Of a stretch of 64,000 bases of DNA, positions 1,892-7,695 are shown piece after piece. The notes under the pieces are model-generated. The model worked only from the letters and a program-made list of their open reading frames with translations, made no database searches and was not told the DNA's origin. This stretch comes from Candidatus Kryptonium sp. (GTDB taxonomy: Bacteria > Bacteroidota > Ignavibacteria > Kryptoniales > Kryptoniaceae): positions 186,001 through 250,000 of the forward strand of contig JANXBN010000002.1 in NCBI GenBank assembly GCA_025060635.1, in the 5' to 3' direction. Positions within the stretch are counted from its first letter, which is position 1. Every line of letters starts with the position of its first letter. The position numbers and the translations under genes were made by a program.

Positions 1892-2230
1892 ATGTCTCAA
1901 GTTAACATAGAGAAACAAGCGACAAGGAAAAAAGTTAAACTTGTAGCTGTTGTTAATCCGGTTGGTTGCACAGGATGTGAGGTATGCATTGAGTTCTGTC
2001 CAGTTGATTGTATTTATAAGGTCAGAGGCCCAGAATACATTGATTCATTTGATGGTGTTAAATCAACGACTCTTGAAATTTTAAGAGAAAACATTTTGAA
2101 TGGAATAAATCCTTTTTCAAATGTTAACGGCATTGTGATAGTGGATGAGGAAATTTGCATAGGCTGCAAACTTTGCGCAAAGTATTGTCCCTGGGAAACA
2201 ATTGACATGGTTCAAAAAGATAATGAATAA
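1892..2230 (+). CDS. Two-cluster 4Fe-4S ferredoxin-like protein
   Basis: A 112-residue soluble iron-sulfur protein with two CxxCxxCxxxCP motifs, CTGCEVCIEFCP near residue 29 and CIGCKLCAKYCP near residue 90. Each should bind one 4Fe-4S cluster. About 50 residues lie between the motifs, much longer than the spacer of a compact bacterial 2[4Fe-4S] ferredoxin, so this is a ferredoxin-like subunit with an insert. It sits between atpC and the Rrf2 gene, 11 bases before the latter, at the head of the bc-complex cluster. It could donate to or accept electrons from that complex, or be an accessory. That role is inferred from position only. Confidence 0.85.
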   Translation: MSQVNIEKQATRKKVKLVAVVNPVGCTGCEVCIEFCPVDCIYKVRGPEYIDSFDGVKSTTLEILRENILNGINPFSNVNGIVIVDEEICIGCKLCAKYCPWETIDMVQKDNE

Positions 2231-2241
2231 TAAAGGCTTAA

Positions 2242-2679
2242 ATGATAGATATATCAAAATCACTTGGATACGCAATACACGCAATAGTTTATATGGCTAC
2301 AAGAAAAGATAAAAAACTTGTCCGTGCATCCGAAGTAGCACGTGAATGTGGATTATCGGTCAGCTATATGATGAAAATTCTTCAAGCCCTGCGCCGTGCT
2401 GGTATAGTTGACAGTACAATTGGTGTTAAAGGTGGGTATTTCTTATCTAAACCGCTTGAACAGATAACGCTATATGAACTCATATCCGCAATTGAGCCAT
2501 CAAGAGAGGAAATTTGTTATCTTTCTACCGCTATTGGATGTCGCTATAGGAAGGACTGTATCGTAAGAAATTTATTTTCGGATGTTAACGAGAAAATAAA
2601 ACTTTATCTTAAATCTGTAAACCTTCAGGAAGTGGTTGATTCAATAGGTGATAAAATTTGCGTGTATTCAAAAGTTTAA
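2242..2679 (+). CDS. Rrf2 family transcription regulator, probably Fe-S sensing
   Basis: A 145-residue Rrf2/IscR/NsrR-type DNA-binding protein. The winged-helix part is clear: AIHAIVYMA, then the recognition helix region VSYMMKILQALRRAG and the wing GVKGGYFLSKP. Three cysteines that could bind an Fe-S cluster are C92, C100 and C106. E. coli IscR uses C92, C98 and C104, so the pattern is similar but with a longer first gap. It lies directly after the ferredoxin gene and before the Rieske gene, with a palindrome at 2714-2732 as a candidate target. It probably controls the respiratory cluster in response to redox, NO or Fe-S status. The signal cannot be told from sequence. Confidence 0.9.
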   Translation: MIDISKSLGYAIHAIVYMATRKDKKLVRASEVARECGLSVSYMMKILQALRRAGIVDSTIGVKGGYFLSKPLEQITLYELISAIEPSREEICYLSTAIGCRYRKDCIVRNLFSDVNEKIKLYLKSVNLQEVVDSIGDKICVYSKV

Positions 2680-2753: not shown

Positions 2754-3347
2754 ATGAGCGAGATCTTGCATCAATCCCAAAAACAAGAGAAAGCACAAAG
2801 GGAACCAAGAAAAGTAATTCCTAAACAGGATAAGCCTCCTGAAAATGACACGGGACTTTGGAAGTTTAATCGTCGTTCTTTTCTAACGCTTGCTGGATGG
2901 CTTGGCTTTTTGGGATTCATATTTACATCAATAATTGGCGCGATCAGATATATGTTTCCTCGTGTTCTTTATGAACCTCCAACAGCGTTCAAAGCAGGTT
3001 ATCCAGAGGAATATACAGTTGGGGAGGTAAGTGAAAAGTTCAAAGATTCTCAGCGTGTGTGGATAGTTCGCGAGGAAGATGGTTTTTATGCACTTCTTGC
3101 AGTTTGCACTCATCTTGGATGCACGCCGAGGTGGTTAAGCGGTGAGAATAAATTCAAATGCCCTTGCCATGGTAGTGGTTTCAGAAAATCTGGAATAAAC
3201 TTTGAAGGACCTGCTCCAAGACCTCTTGAGAGAGTCAAAATATCTCTTGCAGAAGATGGGCAAATTTTAATTGATAAAGGTGTTACATACAGATATGAGA
3301 AAGGAGAGTGGGGTAAACCAGGTTCTTTTCTACCATACAGAAGCTAG
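2754..3347 (+). CDS. Rieske 2Fe-2S protein of a bc-type complex
   Basis: Electron-transfer subunit that takes the first electron from quinol at the Qo site and passes it to a cytochrome c. It is 197 residues. A charged cytoplasmic N-terminus is followed by one membrane anchor (about residues 42-65, LAGWLGFLGFIFTSIIGAI) and the Rieske head. The cluster motifs are CTHLGC from residue 118 and CPCHGSGF from residue 136, giving two Cys and two His ligands plus the disulfide pair. It is followed after 27 bases by the cytochrome b6-like gene, so the two belong to one complex. The RRS sequence before the anchor may be a Tat signal, as is usual for Rieske proteins. Confidence 0.95.
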   Translation: MSEILHQSQKQEKAQREPRKVIPKQDKPPENDTGLWKFNRRSFLTLAGWLGFLGFIFTSIIGAIRYMFPRVLYEPPTAFKAGYPEEYTVGEVSEKFKDSQRVWIVREEDGFYALLAVCTHLGCTPRWLSGENKFKCPCHGSGFRKSGINFEGPAPRPLERVKISLAEDGQILIDKGVTYRYEKGEWGKPGSFLPYRS

Positions 3348-3374: not shown

Positions 3375-4151
3375 ATGCTTGCTCAAATAAAAAAGAAGAT
3401 AAAAAACTCGGAAATCTATAAGTCAATCTTTCGTCATGGTTATGAAGACACTCAAAGAAATAGAGCTCTTATGGTCGTTGATAATGTTTTCCTTCATTTG
3501 CATCCGGTTAGAGTTTCAAGACATGCGGTGAACTATGGGTATACTTGGGGAATGGGTGGCATCTCGTTTCTTTTGTTTATAATTTTGACAATTACGGGGG
3601 TTATTTTGATGTTTTATTATCGTCCAGCTGCTGAATATGCTTACGAGGATATGAAATATTTGATGAACGATGTTCCATTTGGGGCATTGTTAAGAAATAT
3701 GCATCGCTGGGCTGCACATTTGATGGTTATAACTGTTATGCTTCATATGTTTAGGGTATTCTTAACAGGGTCGTATAAACCACCAAGACAATTTAACTGG
3801 GTAATTGGTGTTATACTTTTGCTTTTGACATTTCTTTTGAGCTTTACAGGATACCTCTTGCCGTGGGATCAATTAGCTATATGGGCTGTGACAGTTGGAA
3901 CAAATATGGCAGCTGCAACTCCGTTTCTTGGACATCAGGGACCTTTCGGACCCGAGCTTGGAATGAGACCTGATAATGATGTTAGATTTTTACTTCTTGG
4001 AGGAACTAAGGTTGGACCACCAACTTTGTTAAGATTTTATGTTCTACATTGTGTTTTTCTACCTCTTGTTACAGCAATTTTCCTTGCAGTTCATTTTTGG
4101 CGCGTGAGAAAAGATGGAGGCATCTCTGGTCCTAATCCAAAAAAGATTTAA
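3375..4151 (+). CDS. Cytochrome b6-like subunit (N-terminal half of cytochrome b)
   Basis: Inner-membrane di-heme subunit, 258 residues with four core helices. Helix B ligands are H110 and H124 (13 residues between). Helix D ligands are H225 and H240 with 14 residues between, which is the b6 spacing, not the 13 of mitochondrial-type cytochrome b. The Qo-region motif [13 protein letters not shown] is present. The cysteine that holds heme ci in chloroplast b6 appears to be replaced by glycine (GMGGISF against CLGGITL), so a covalent ci heme is not expected. An N-terminal extension of about 35 residues precedes the normal start region. It pairs with the separate subunit-IV-like gene 21 bases downstream. 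Confidence 0.93.
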
Positions 4152-4172: not shown

Positions 4173-5066
4173 ATGCAAAATCTTCTTAGAATTCTTGGAC
4201 ATCCAGATAACTTTCCAATTATAATCCTGCTTTTTACAGTTTATGGTTTTTTCATTTATGCTATGAGAAAAGCGAAGAGAAACGACGAGCGTGGAATTCC
4301 ATATGAAGCCGATGAAACAGATAAAGTTCAGGTTTGGCCTTATCTCGTTCGCGTTGAGTTTATCGCTGCTATTGCAGTGATGGCTTTCCTTCTTGTTTGG
4401 TCTATTGGGTTCAACGCACCGCTTGAAGAACCGGCGAATCCATCTCTTACGCCAAATCCATCAAAAGCGCCATGGTATTTTCTCGGACTTCAAGAAATGC
4501 TTGTTTACTTTGATCCTTGGATTGCAGGTGTTCTATTACCAGGACTTATAATAATTGGTTTAATGGCAATACCATATATTGATATAAATCCAAAAGGCAA
4601 CGGCTATTATACATTTAAAGAAAGGAAATGGGCAATCACAATTTTTGCGTTTGGATTTCTAATTTTATGGGTTCTTTTAATTGTCGTTGGGACATTTTTC
4701 AGAGGACCGGGTTGGAATTTCTTCTGGCCTTGGGAAGAGTGGGATCCACATAAAGTTGTTGCTATTACAAATGTTGACTTGAATGAACTTATTGGAATTC
4801 CAACTTATAATCCTGATGGCTCGCTAAATCCAGTTGCTTCTATTTTTGGTGGTATTGTTGTCATCGGATATTATGCAATTTTAATGCCTTTGGGATGGTT
4901 ATGGATGAAAAAGAAAATGCCAGATTTTGCAGAAAAATTTGGATTAACGAGATATTTGATTACCTCATATCTGCTTTTAACTATGATAGCTTTGCCGATA
5001 AAGATGATTTTAAGATGGACATTGAATGTTAAATATGTCTGGGTGACGCCGTGGTTCAATGTTTAA
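4173..5066 (+). CDS. Cytochrome b C-terminal half (subunit IV-like)
   Basis: Supplies the rest of the quinol-oxidation site of the bc-type complex. It is 297 residues, longer than the ~160 of cyanobacterial subunit IV. The Qo motif reads APWY (in PSKAPWYFLGLQEML) instead of PEWY, so the catalytic glutamate is missing. APWY/PPWY-type variants are known in several deep-branching bacteria. The rest contains a first N-terminal membrane helix (residues 8-28), a helix at about 66-85, and four or more further helices after the motif. Between two of them is a soluble loop (PWEEWDPHKV) not seen in subunit IV. It is followed 28 bases later by the octaheme cytochrome gene. Confidence 0.9.
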   Translation: MQNLLRILGHPDNFPIIILLFTVYGFFIYAMRKAKRNDERGIPYEADETDKVQVWPYLVRVEFIAAIAVMAFLLVWSIGFNAPLEEPANPSLTPNPSKAPWYFLGLQEMLVYFDPWIAGVLLPGLIIIGLMAIPYIDINPKGNGYYTFKERKWAITIFAFGFLILWVLLIVVGTFFRGPGWNFFWPWEEWDPHKVVAITNVDLNELIGIPTYNPDGSLNPVASIFGGIVVIGYYAILMPLGWLWMKKKMPDFAEKFGLTRYLITSYLLLTMIALPIKMILRWTLNVKYVWVTPWFNV

Positions 5067-5094: not shown

Positions 5095-7695
5095 ATGATC
5101 CTAAAATGGCTGAAAAAGCGGAAGGAAATACCGATTGAACAAAGAAGATATGATAAAATTTATCTTTTACTTGCGATCATTCTCTTTCTTGCAACATTAT
5201 GGGCTGTAATTGACGAGGTCTCAACACGAAGACCTTGGAAGGAATATCAGAGAAAATTTTATCAGTTGAAGCTATCTAAACTTGATTCGCTTTATAAGCT
5301 AGCTCTTGCGAATTTTGACAGCGCAAGATATAAAGAATTGTCTGAAGAGCTTGCAAAAGCGAAAGCAGGACTTGAATCAGACGAATACAAAAAAGCCCTT
5401 TCAGATTATAAAAGATACGAAAAGGAGCTTGCTGAGTTAAATAGGGAATTTCAATTTGCAAAAAGCAGATCCGACGAATACTATTACTTCTACCAAAAAG
5501 CTAAGCTTGAAAACAGCGGACAAAAAGAAACTCAAAAGTGGTGGGAAAGAATTCAGCGCGAAGAAAGGTTAATGAATGAACTTAACACAAAGATAGAAGA
5601 ACTGACAAGAAAGAGAGACGAAGCATGGGCAATAGTGAAAAGTTATAGGGCAAGGGTTGATGAGGTAGAGCGTGAGATTAGCAAACTTTTTGATGAAATA
5701 AACAAAATTAAAGATAGAATTCAAAAAACCAAGGAAGCACAGATAAAAATTATCCAAGTAATCTTGCCTGAATTTGAGCGCACTAACTTTGGGACTTTGA
5801 AATCTCGTGTTGACAGATGTCAAACTTGTCATCTTGGATGGAATGATCCACTTTTTGAAGATGCACCGCAACCTTTTAAAACTCATCCCAACCTTGAGCT
5901 TCTTGCGAAACATAATCCAGAAAAATTTGGTTGCACGCCATGCCACCGTGGTCAAGGTCCAGCTCTTACAGAAGGATATGCCCACGGCGATAAAGATAAA
6001 TACTGGGAATGGCCAATCTTAAAGAAGGAAAATATAGAAGCTGGATGCAATGATTGTCATTTCAACGAAATTAATTTGAAATGGGCGCCGAAACTCACGG
6101 CAGGAAAGCATATCTTGATAGAATCTGGATGTTATGGATGTCATGGTGTTGATGGTTATAATGATCTTCCAAAGATTGGTCCAAGTTTGAATAATTTGCT
6201 TGTTAAGACGACACCTGGCTGGATTTATCGCTGGCTTTTAAATCCACGGGAATATCTACCACATGGAAGAATGCCTAACTTTAAGTTAACACCTGAAGAA
6301 TCTGAAGCTATAACAGCTTATCTTGTCAAGATTGGTCAAGATAGTGCCAAGAATTGGGAATATAAATATAAATACTTGTCTGGTGGAAATCCAGCGCGTG
6401 GAAAAGAACTCGTTGAGAATATCGGTTGTCTTGGATGCCATGCAATTGGAGATAATAAAGTTGTTAGAGAAACGAGAGGTTTAAATTATGATGTCGCTCC
6501 TGAACTAACAAAAATTGGAAGCAAAGTTAATCCGCAGTGGTTGTATGATTGGCTTAAAAATCCACGACATTACCTGCCGAACACAAAGATGCCAAGTTTG
6601 AGATTAACCGATCAAGAAGCAAGTGATATCGTTGCTTATTTGATGACTTTGAAAGATACGGTTGATTACTCCGCCATAAAGGTAAATTATTCTGAAGCTA
6701 AAGCTGAACAAGGCTTAAGGTTGATAAAAATGTATGGTTGCTATGGTTGTCATGATATAAAGGGAACAGAGAAAGAGACGAAAGTAAGTGTTGATATTTC
6801 TGACTTTGCTCGTAAGAATCTTGAACAACTTGATTTTGGCTATAAAAAACACTTGCCAAAAGATCGTCTTGTATGGCTTGCTGAAAAGCTTCGCGATTCT
6901 CGTGGATTTTCAACAGAGAGAATTCAATTAAGGATGCCGCAATTTAATTTTACGGATAAAGAAGTAGATGCTCTTGTGACTTTAATTGCAAGTTTCAAGA
7001 AGAATGAAGTTGGTCCAAGCCATGTTCAAACATTTGATAAGAAGAGAAAAGAAATCAATGATGGAAGGAAGTTAGCGCTTTTGTATAATTGTACCAATTG
7101 CCATCAGATTGAGGAGCAAGGCGGATATATCCATCCAATGATTGAAGATCCTGGATTAAGACCACCGCTGCTTACAATTGAAGGAGCAAAGGTTCAAGAG
7201 CCATGGCTTTATGAATTTTTGAGAAATCCATCAATTATAAGACCATGGTTTAAATTAAGAATGCCGACCTTTCAACTTACAGATGATGAGATAACTACCC
7301 TTATAAAATATTTCCTTGGTTTGAGTAATCAAGAATTCAAAGTTAGAAGTTACGATGTTCCACTTGAAAAGAAATATGTTGACGCAGGAAAAGTTTTATT
7401 TGATAGATTACAATGTTTAAAATGCCATGTTGCTGGAAGTGATCTTGCTGCATCAATGCTTGCTCCCAATCTTGACCTTGCACCAAATAGATTAAAACCC
7501 GAATGGGTTATTGACTGGCTACGTGACCCTCAAGCAATTCAACCTGGCACAAATATGCCAACATTTTTCTATGAAGGGACAAGTCCAGTTCCGGATGTGC
7601 TCAATGGTGACGCAAATGAACAGATAAGGGCTTTGAGAGATTATATCTGGACATTTTCTCGTAGGAAAGGTTCAACTATCGTGATGGGGAAATAG
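5095..7695 (+). CDS. Octaheme membrane-anchored cytochrome c with coiled coil
   Basis: An 866-residue c-type cytochrome and the last gene of the bc-complex operon. One membrane helix (about residues 22-41) is followed by a long charged coiled coil (about 60-225). Then come eight CxxCH motifs with first cysteines at 242, 280, 318, 346, 445, 549, 666 and 774. The first three are close together in a multiheme segment without a nearby MP motif. Hemes 4-8 lie in five repeated class-I-like domains, each ending in a WLxxxLxxP...MP(x)F pattern whose Met is the likely distal ligand. It probably carries electrons from the Rieske head through the periplasm. The TM-coil-octaheme arrangement is not one I know by name. 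It replaces cytochrome f/c1, neither of which is seen here. Confidence 0.9.
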   Translation: MILKWLKKRKEIPIEQRRYDKIYLLLAIILFLATLWAVIDEVSTRRPWKEYQRKFYQLKLSKLDSLYKLALANFDSARYKELSEELAKAKAGLESDEYKKALSDYKRYEKELAELNREFQFAKSRSDEYYYFYQKAKLENSGQKETQKWWERIQREERLMNELNTKIEELTRKRDEAWAIVKSYRARVDEVEREISKLFDEINKIKDRIQKTKEAQIKIIQVILPEFERTNFGTLKSRVDRCQTCHLGWNDPLFEDAPQPFKTHPNLELLAKHNPEKFGCTPCHRGQGPALTEGYAHGDKDKYWEWPILKKENIEAGCNDCHFNEINLKWAPKLTAGKHILIESGCYGCHGVDGYNDLPKIGPSLNNLLVKTTPGWIYRWLLNPREYLPHGRMPNFKLTPEESEAITAYLVKIGQDSAKNWEYKYKYLSGGNPARGKELVENIGCLGCHAIGDNKVVRETRGLNYDVAPELTKIGSKVNPQWLYDWLKNPRHYLPNTKMPSLRLTDQEASDIVAYLMTLKDTVDYSAIKVNYSEAKAEQGLRLIKMYGCYGCHDIKGTEKETKVSVDISDFARKNLEQLDFGYKKHLPKDRLVWLAEKLRDSRGFSTERIQLRMPQFNFTDKEVDALVTLIASFKKNEVGPSHVQTFDKKRKEINDGRKLALLYNCTNCHQIEEQGGYIHPMIEDPGLRPPLLTIEGAKVQEPWLYEFLRNPSIIRPWFKLRMPTFQLTDDEITTLIKYFLGLSNQEFKVRSYDVPLEKKYVDAGKVLFDRLQCLKCHVAGSDLAASMLAPNLDLAPNRLKPEWVIDWLRDPQAIQPGTNMPTFFYEGTSPVPDVLNGDANEQIRALRDYIWTFSRRKGSTIVMGK

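Follow-up and report, generated by a model that had tools for sequence, protein, structure and literature searches.

Described complexes and the Kryptonium locus

In Nitrospina gracilis, a Rieske/split cytochrome b operon was described in which the sole c subunit is an "atypical octaheme" cytochrome, and the same operon was found in Kuenenia and Methylomirabilis (PMC3578206). For the Kustd1480-1485 complex of Kuenenia stuttgartiensis, the octaheme subunit Kustd1485 was modelled with long alpha-helices, and the combination of Ser and Phe at the tuning positions of the Rieske protein was reported for Kustd1480 (PMC12954380). The Geobacter ext cluster encodes a Rieske protein (ExtO), a cytochrome b (ExtP), ExtQ, and a cytochrome c, ExtS (PMC5877670). 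In the actinobacterial bcc-aa3 supercomplex, a multi-domain class-I c subunit feeds CuA without a soluble cytochrome c.

We analyzed a stretch of 64,000 nucleotides from Candidatus Kryptonium sp. (hereafter, the window), which encodes an octaheme c-type cytochrome next to Rieske and cytochrome b genes (Table 1). We consider it probable, at roughly 0.8, that this protein serves as the c-type subunit in a Rieske/cytochrome b complex with a split, b6-type cytochrome b, which oxidizes menaquinol and in which the octaheme protein stands in place of cytochrome c1/f, with a path from a triheme segment to a cupredoxin/CuA and with a helical hairpin. The sequence support comprises the eight heme sites, the membrane anchor, the conserved Rieske-b6-subunit IV-octaheme operon, and the linkage to genes of a cupredoxin-like protein and an aa3-type oxidase (CuA). 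We infer the electron path, the redox potentials and the heme ligands; menaquinol is the likely electron donor on the basis of the lineage.

The window operon has the Rieske, b6, subunit IV and octaheme c composition published for Nitrospina, Kuenenia and Methylomirabilis (PMC3578206), and fits the description of this already known kind. The original prediction had named, as a finding that would speak against it, an already known family whose layout is identical, and the published operons (PMC3578206, PMC12954380) largely constitute such a family. Compared by text with Kustd1480-1485, the window shares a b6-like four-helix cytochrome b, a subunit IV-like protein, a Rieske protein and a large multiheme c protein with long alpha-helices; the window Rieske protein also carries Ser with Phe at the tuning positions, as in Kustd1480. 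However, the Kuenenia complexes also possess an NAD(P) oxidoreductase and heme cN, whereas the window has a small ferredoxin-like neighbor and no cN Cys, and the linked partners of its complex are a cupredoxin and an aa3 oxidase. No NAD(P) oxidoreductase gene of the Kuenenia type adjoins the window operon, and the Cys at the heme cN position, as in cytochrome b6f, was absent from all 17 aligned cytochrome b sequences.

The profile matches of the b subunits and of the c protein were to ExtP/ExtQ and QcrC-type models. The split b subunits are related to those of the Geobacter ext cluster, with scores of 285.9 bits for ExtP (cut-off 290) and 64.3 bits for ExtQ (cut-off 150), and the c protein matched ExtS in part. 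ExtS, unlike the window protein, is a four-heme lipoprotein, and the ext cluster adds 5-, 10- and 12-heme proteins and a porin. The likeness to the actinobacterial supercomplex lies in residues 335-530, for which the PDB sequence matches were mycobacterial bc1 cytochrome c subunits; the diheme QcrC, however, has two hemes and neither a triheme segment nor a helical hairpin, and the match of the octaheme protein to the QcrC model (58.6 bits) was far under the cut-off of 200.

Table 1. Coordinates of the octaheme gene, its parts and the associated genes (window positions unless a locus is given)
Feature	Position	Strand	Remarks
Octaheme c-type cytochrome, proposed c subunit of Rieske/cytochrome b complex	5095..7695	+	866 aa, ATG start
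N-terminal transmembrane helix, residues 19-45	5149..5229	+	AlphaFold2 secondary structure; N-in/C-out predicted by positive-inside rule
Helical segment with two limbs (residues 48-138, 143-214) and a turn at 139-142	5236..5736	+	Missing in coil-less homologues
Triheme segment	5818..6060	+	CxxCH at residues 242, 280, 318
Five class-I-like monoheme domains	6130..7572	+	CxxCH at 346, 445, 549, 666, 774; MP at 393 (MPNF), 499 (MPSL), 614 (MPQF), 723 (MPTF), 821 (MPTF)
Cytochrome b C-terminal part, subunit IV-like	4173..5066	+	Qo motif KAPWY
Cytochrome b6-like subunit	3375..4151	+	Both b hemes have conserved His pairs; heme cN position lacks Cys
Rieske [2Fe-2S] protein	2754..3347	+	CTHLGC, CPCHGSGF
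Rrf2-family regulator	2242..2679	+	Inside gene run in Kryptonia
2x[4Fe-4S] ferredoxin-like protein	1892..2230	+	Adjoins octaheme operon in most relatives
Second Rieske/cytochrome b operon, in Kryptonia genomes other than that of the window	L061:16937-19863; L062:1495-6988; L063:1694-7198

The operon and its octaheme protein

The genes follow one another on the + strand in the order ferredoxin-like, Rrf2, Rieske, b6-like, subunit IV-like and octaheme. The gaps among the last four are 21-28 bases, which suggests that they form a single transcription unit. Pfam matches were obtained to Rieske (PF00355), Cytochrome_B (PF00033, 3.7e-46) and Cytochrom_B_C (PF00032), and the His pairs of both b hemes were retained in the cytochrome b alignment. 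An LHxHP motif near the N-terminus of the b6-like subunit is kept in most aligned sequences; it could be the extra b-heme ligand predicted for the Kuenenia complexes. No other gene for a c1/f-type subunit lies between the cytochrome b genes and the octaheme gene. With Rieske and cytochrome b genes upstream, the octaheme protein would serve as the outlet for electrons from the Rieske protein.

Eight CxxCH motifs had been noted, and all of them were found at exactly the residues named (Table 1). They account for 16 of the 16 cysteines of the protein; in 20,000 shuffles of its sequence, the mean number of such motifs was 0.005 and the maximum was 1. Pfam recognized Cytochrom_C (PF00034) in five stretches. 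Each of the last five heme units had been said to end in an MP(x)F site: the MP is present in all five, but the full MPxF in four, the remaining one reading MPSL. In the alignment of 35 homologues, all eight CxxCH motifs and the Met-Pro of the first four monoheme domains were invariant. The fifth Met is kept within the class to which the window belongs, but the more distant proteins listed have E-P or Q-P in its place. His 264 and His 273 were also invariant among the 35 sequences and His 297 was 97% conserved; these three residues are candidates for sixth ligands in the triheme segment.

A positive flank (KKRK...RR) precedes the membrane helix, and all eight CxxCH motifs are C-terminal to it; the placement of the heme part on the positive side of the membrane rests on the charge rule. 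An octaheme enzyme of the HAO type, with eight hemes packed in one domain, was ruled out by the division into a triheme part and five class-I-like domains that are separate and carry Met sites.

A recent origin of the five monoheme domains by tandem duplication was also rejected. Pairwise scores between domains at the same position in different organisms averaged 157-222, as opposed to 27-139 for domains at different positions. Since same-position domains of different organisms are far more alike than domains at different positions within one protein, the five-domain array predates the split of these lineages; judged by these sequence comparisons, it is old and its positions are specialized.

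The ferredoxin-like protein and the helical segment

A second Rieske/cytochrome b operon bears on the small ferredoxin-like protein. A five-heme relative of the octaheme protein was found in most other Kryptonia genomes searched and had no match in the genome of the window. In the three loci read, its operon comprises genes for an Rrf2 regulator, a GltD-like NAD(P) oxidoreductase, a Rieske protein, a fused cytochrome b and the five-heme c protein; the oxidoreductase has about 640 aa and a C-terminal 2x[4Fe-4S] part. In locus L075, such an NAD(P) oxidoreductase occurs together with an eight-heme subunit that lacks the coil. The ferredoxin-like protein of the window is 26-36% identical to the Fe-S part of the oxidoreductases (E values of about 3e-4 to 2e-6 against a small database), and is possibly a cytoplasmic-side subunit of the complex. 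This raises the alternative that the complex also sends a low-potential electron to the ferredoxin-like protein on the cytoplasmic side, i.e. bifurcation as proposed for the Kuenenia complexes, which possess such a reductase (PMC12954380). The Fer4 gene adjoins most of these operons, and the resemblance of its product to the Fe-S tail of the oxidoreductases in sister operons fits the proposal; however, small 2x[4Fe-4S] domains are widely alike, Fer4 was not found beside the operon in four loci (L065, L067, L072 and L073), and the cytochrome b lacks the Cys for heme cN. On balance, we regard bifurcation as unlikely. Also unlikely is the compound picture of a complex III-IV unit in which the octaheme arm and a dedicated cupredoxin would replace c1 and soluble cytochrome c, the hairpin would form a belt, the ferredoxin-like protein would be a subunit, and menaquinol oxidation would be bifurcated between O2 and a cytoplasmic acceptor.

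The charged stretch of 165 residues that had been noticed between anchor and hemes is present and is predicted to be helical. As a simple continuous heptad coil it was rejected: heptad-like periodicity was matched by 0 of 1000 shuffles for residues 146-230, but by 553 of 1000 for residues 48-138, so only the second limb passed. AlphaFold2 models were obtained for the full protein (pLDDT 77.9, pTM 0.59; 35 sequences) and for residues 1-237 (pLDDT 88.1, pTM 0.61; 34 sequences). The predicted topology is a membrane helix, helices up to residue 138, a four-residue turn and a single helix; the block-mean pLDDT of the turn is about 90 or more, within a segment at 94-98, and the limbs on either side measure about 91 and 72 residues. 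Foldseek returned mainly hairpin-type coiled coils (segments of SMC, Rad50 and EmrA), all of them weak matches, with none at E < 0.001.

The homologues without the coil, namely the eight-heme protein of L075 and the paralogues with five hemes, agree with the modelled turn. In the alignment, these proteins have the WKxYQ motif, which follows the membrane helix, nearly joined to the IKQ..RVDRC motif that precedes heme 1, and the spacing from WKxYQ to the first heme is about 39-47 residues, compared with about 185-195 in the coil-bearing ones. A segment inserted between two neighboring points has to return to where it started, which makes a hairpin alongside the complex likely; such a hairpin would come back to the membrane, where the Rieske protein could reach the first heme. 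The coil had been suggested to lift the hemes off the membrane, which these results do not support. About 165 charged helical residues do separate anchor and hemes, as a long stalk or a rodlike parallel dimer raising the hemes would demand; yet the turn splits them into two limbs, the flanking motifs almost adjoin where the coil is missing, and a rod of about 100 A or more would presumably put heme 1 beyond the Rieske head. We therefore consider a stalk or rod improbable. In the tree of the core region, the coil-less L075 fell among coil-bearing rows with weak support, so that either a gain or a loss of the coil would fit the tree.

Distribution, electron acceptors and significance

The nearest named relatives are Candidatus Kryptonia, and a contig scan matched Kryptonia only. 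The full-length protein was found at 84-88% identity in five of six genomes of the same genus; the sixth, 71% complete, gave no match. Homologues at 35-49% identity occur in several families of the class; outside the class, one large family of the phylum has homologues at about 30-35%. A plasmid search returned only weak matches to cytochrome domains. The order Rieske-cytbN-cytbC-octaheme, with all eight hemes aligned, is kept in relatives from the genus, the class and the phylum, and is interrupted by extra genes in L074.

Upstream of the octaheme operon lie atpC and atpD, still in the window, and then, outside it, the oxidase run, which in Kryptonia is found just upstream of atpD and consists of genes for a cupredoxin-like protein, CoxB, CoxA, CtaA, CtaB, two CoxC and Sco, with DUF420 as well. 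In the genome of the window, the cupredoxin and aa3-type oxidase genes are about 6-13 kb upstream of the octaheme gene. CoxB contains the CuA motif, and CxxCH is absent from it. Among the PF13442 matches of the genome, there was no small soluble cytochrome c of class I. A separate observation concerns a 695-aa protein with nine CxxCH motifs and a T9SS type A sorting domain, whose gene lies some 18 kb upstream of that for the octaheme protein (L083:3371-5458); it is a probable secreted or surface multiheme cytochrome.

In seven loci of the class, a cupredoxin-like gene with a type-1 Cu motif (H...CxxHxxM) lies downstream of the octaheme gene, directly followed by oxidase genes in six (L065, L066, L067, L070, L071 and L073). 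Such a cupredoxin-like gene is also near the octaheme gene in five loci of the phylum-level family, where genes for a small monoheme cytochrome and for a cupredoxin-like protein (CNVHSEM motif) follow it; by their motifs, both products would be electron carriers. Oxidase genes were absent from the stretches searched in this family, so the acceptor there may be other than an aa3 oxidase.

As a membrane-anchored periplasmic multiheme conductor, with a triheme part and five class-I-like domains, the protein agrees with the periplasmic wire of the original prediction; the Rieske/cytochrome b operon argues against a stand-alone wire. A free-standing wire or conduit for extracellular electron transfer, outside any Rieske/cytochrome b complex, is very improbable: it would suit the eight hemes, the N-terminal anchor and the fact that the b subunits take their closest NCBIfam names from the Geobacter ext cluster, but every coil-bearing full-length locus with flanks has the cytochrome b genes before the octaheme gene, and Rieske too unless the contig ends, no other c1/f-type gene intervenes, and no porin or outer-membrane cytochrome gene adjoins the octaheme gene in the window.

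For the octaheme protein as the c subunit of the complex, we propose the following path. The triheme segment, which would lie close to the membrane and whose hemes are probably bis-His, would receive one electron from the Rieske head, and the five His/Met monoheme domains would carry this electron outward. The octaheme protein would then pass it to the cupredoxin and/or straight to CuA of the oxidase, and from there to oxygen, a route that would substitute for cytochrome c1 and soluble cytochrome c. A Q cycle would take the second electron through both b hemes. The helical hairpin would pack alongside the complex and would not lift the hemes away; perhaps it embraces the Rieske protein, an arrangement modelled for the octaheme of Kuenenia.

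This class of complex III is little studied and has been discussed mainly for nitrite oxidizers, anammox and NC10 bacteria; our analysis would extend it to Kryptonia and other lineages of the phylum. Gene order names the probable acceptors, namely the conserved cupredoxin and the aa3 oxidase. Sister complexes carry either a small ferredoxin-like protein or an NAD(P) oxidoreductase, and this difference makes the bifurcation proposal testable by comparison.
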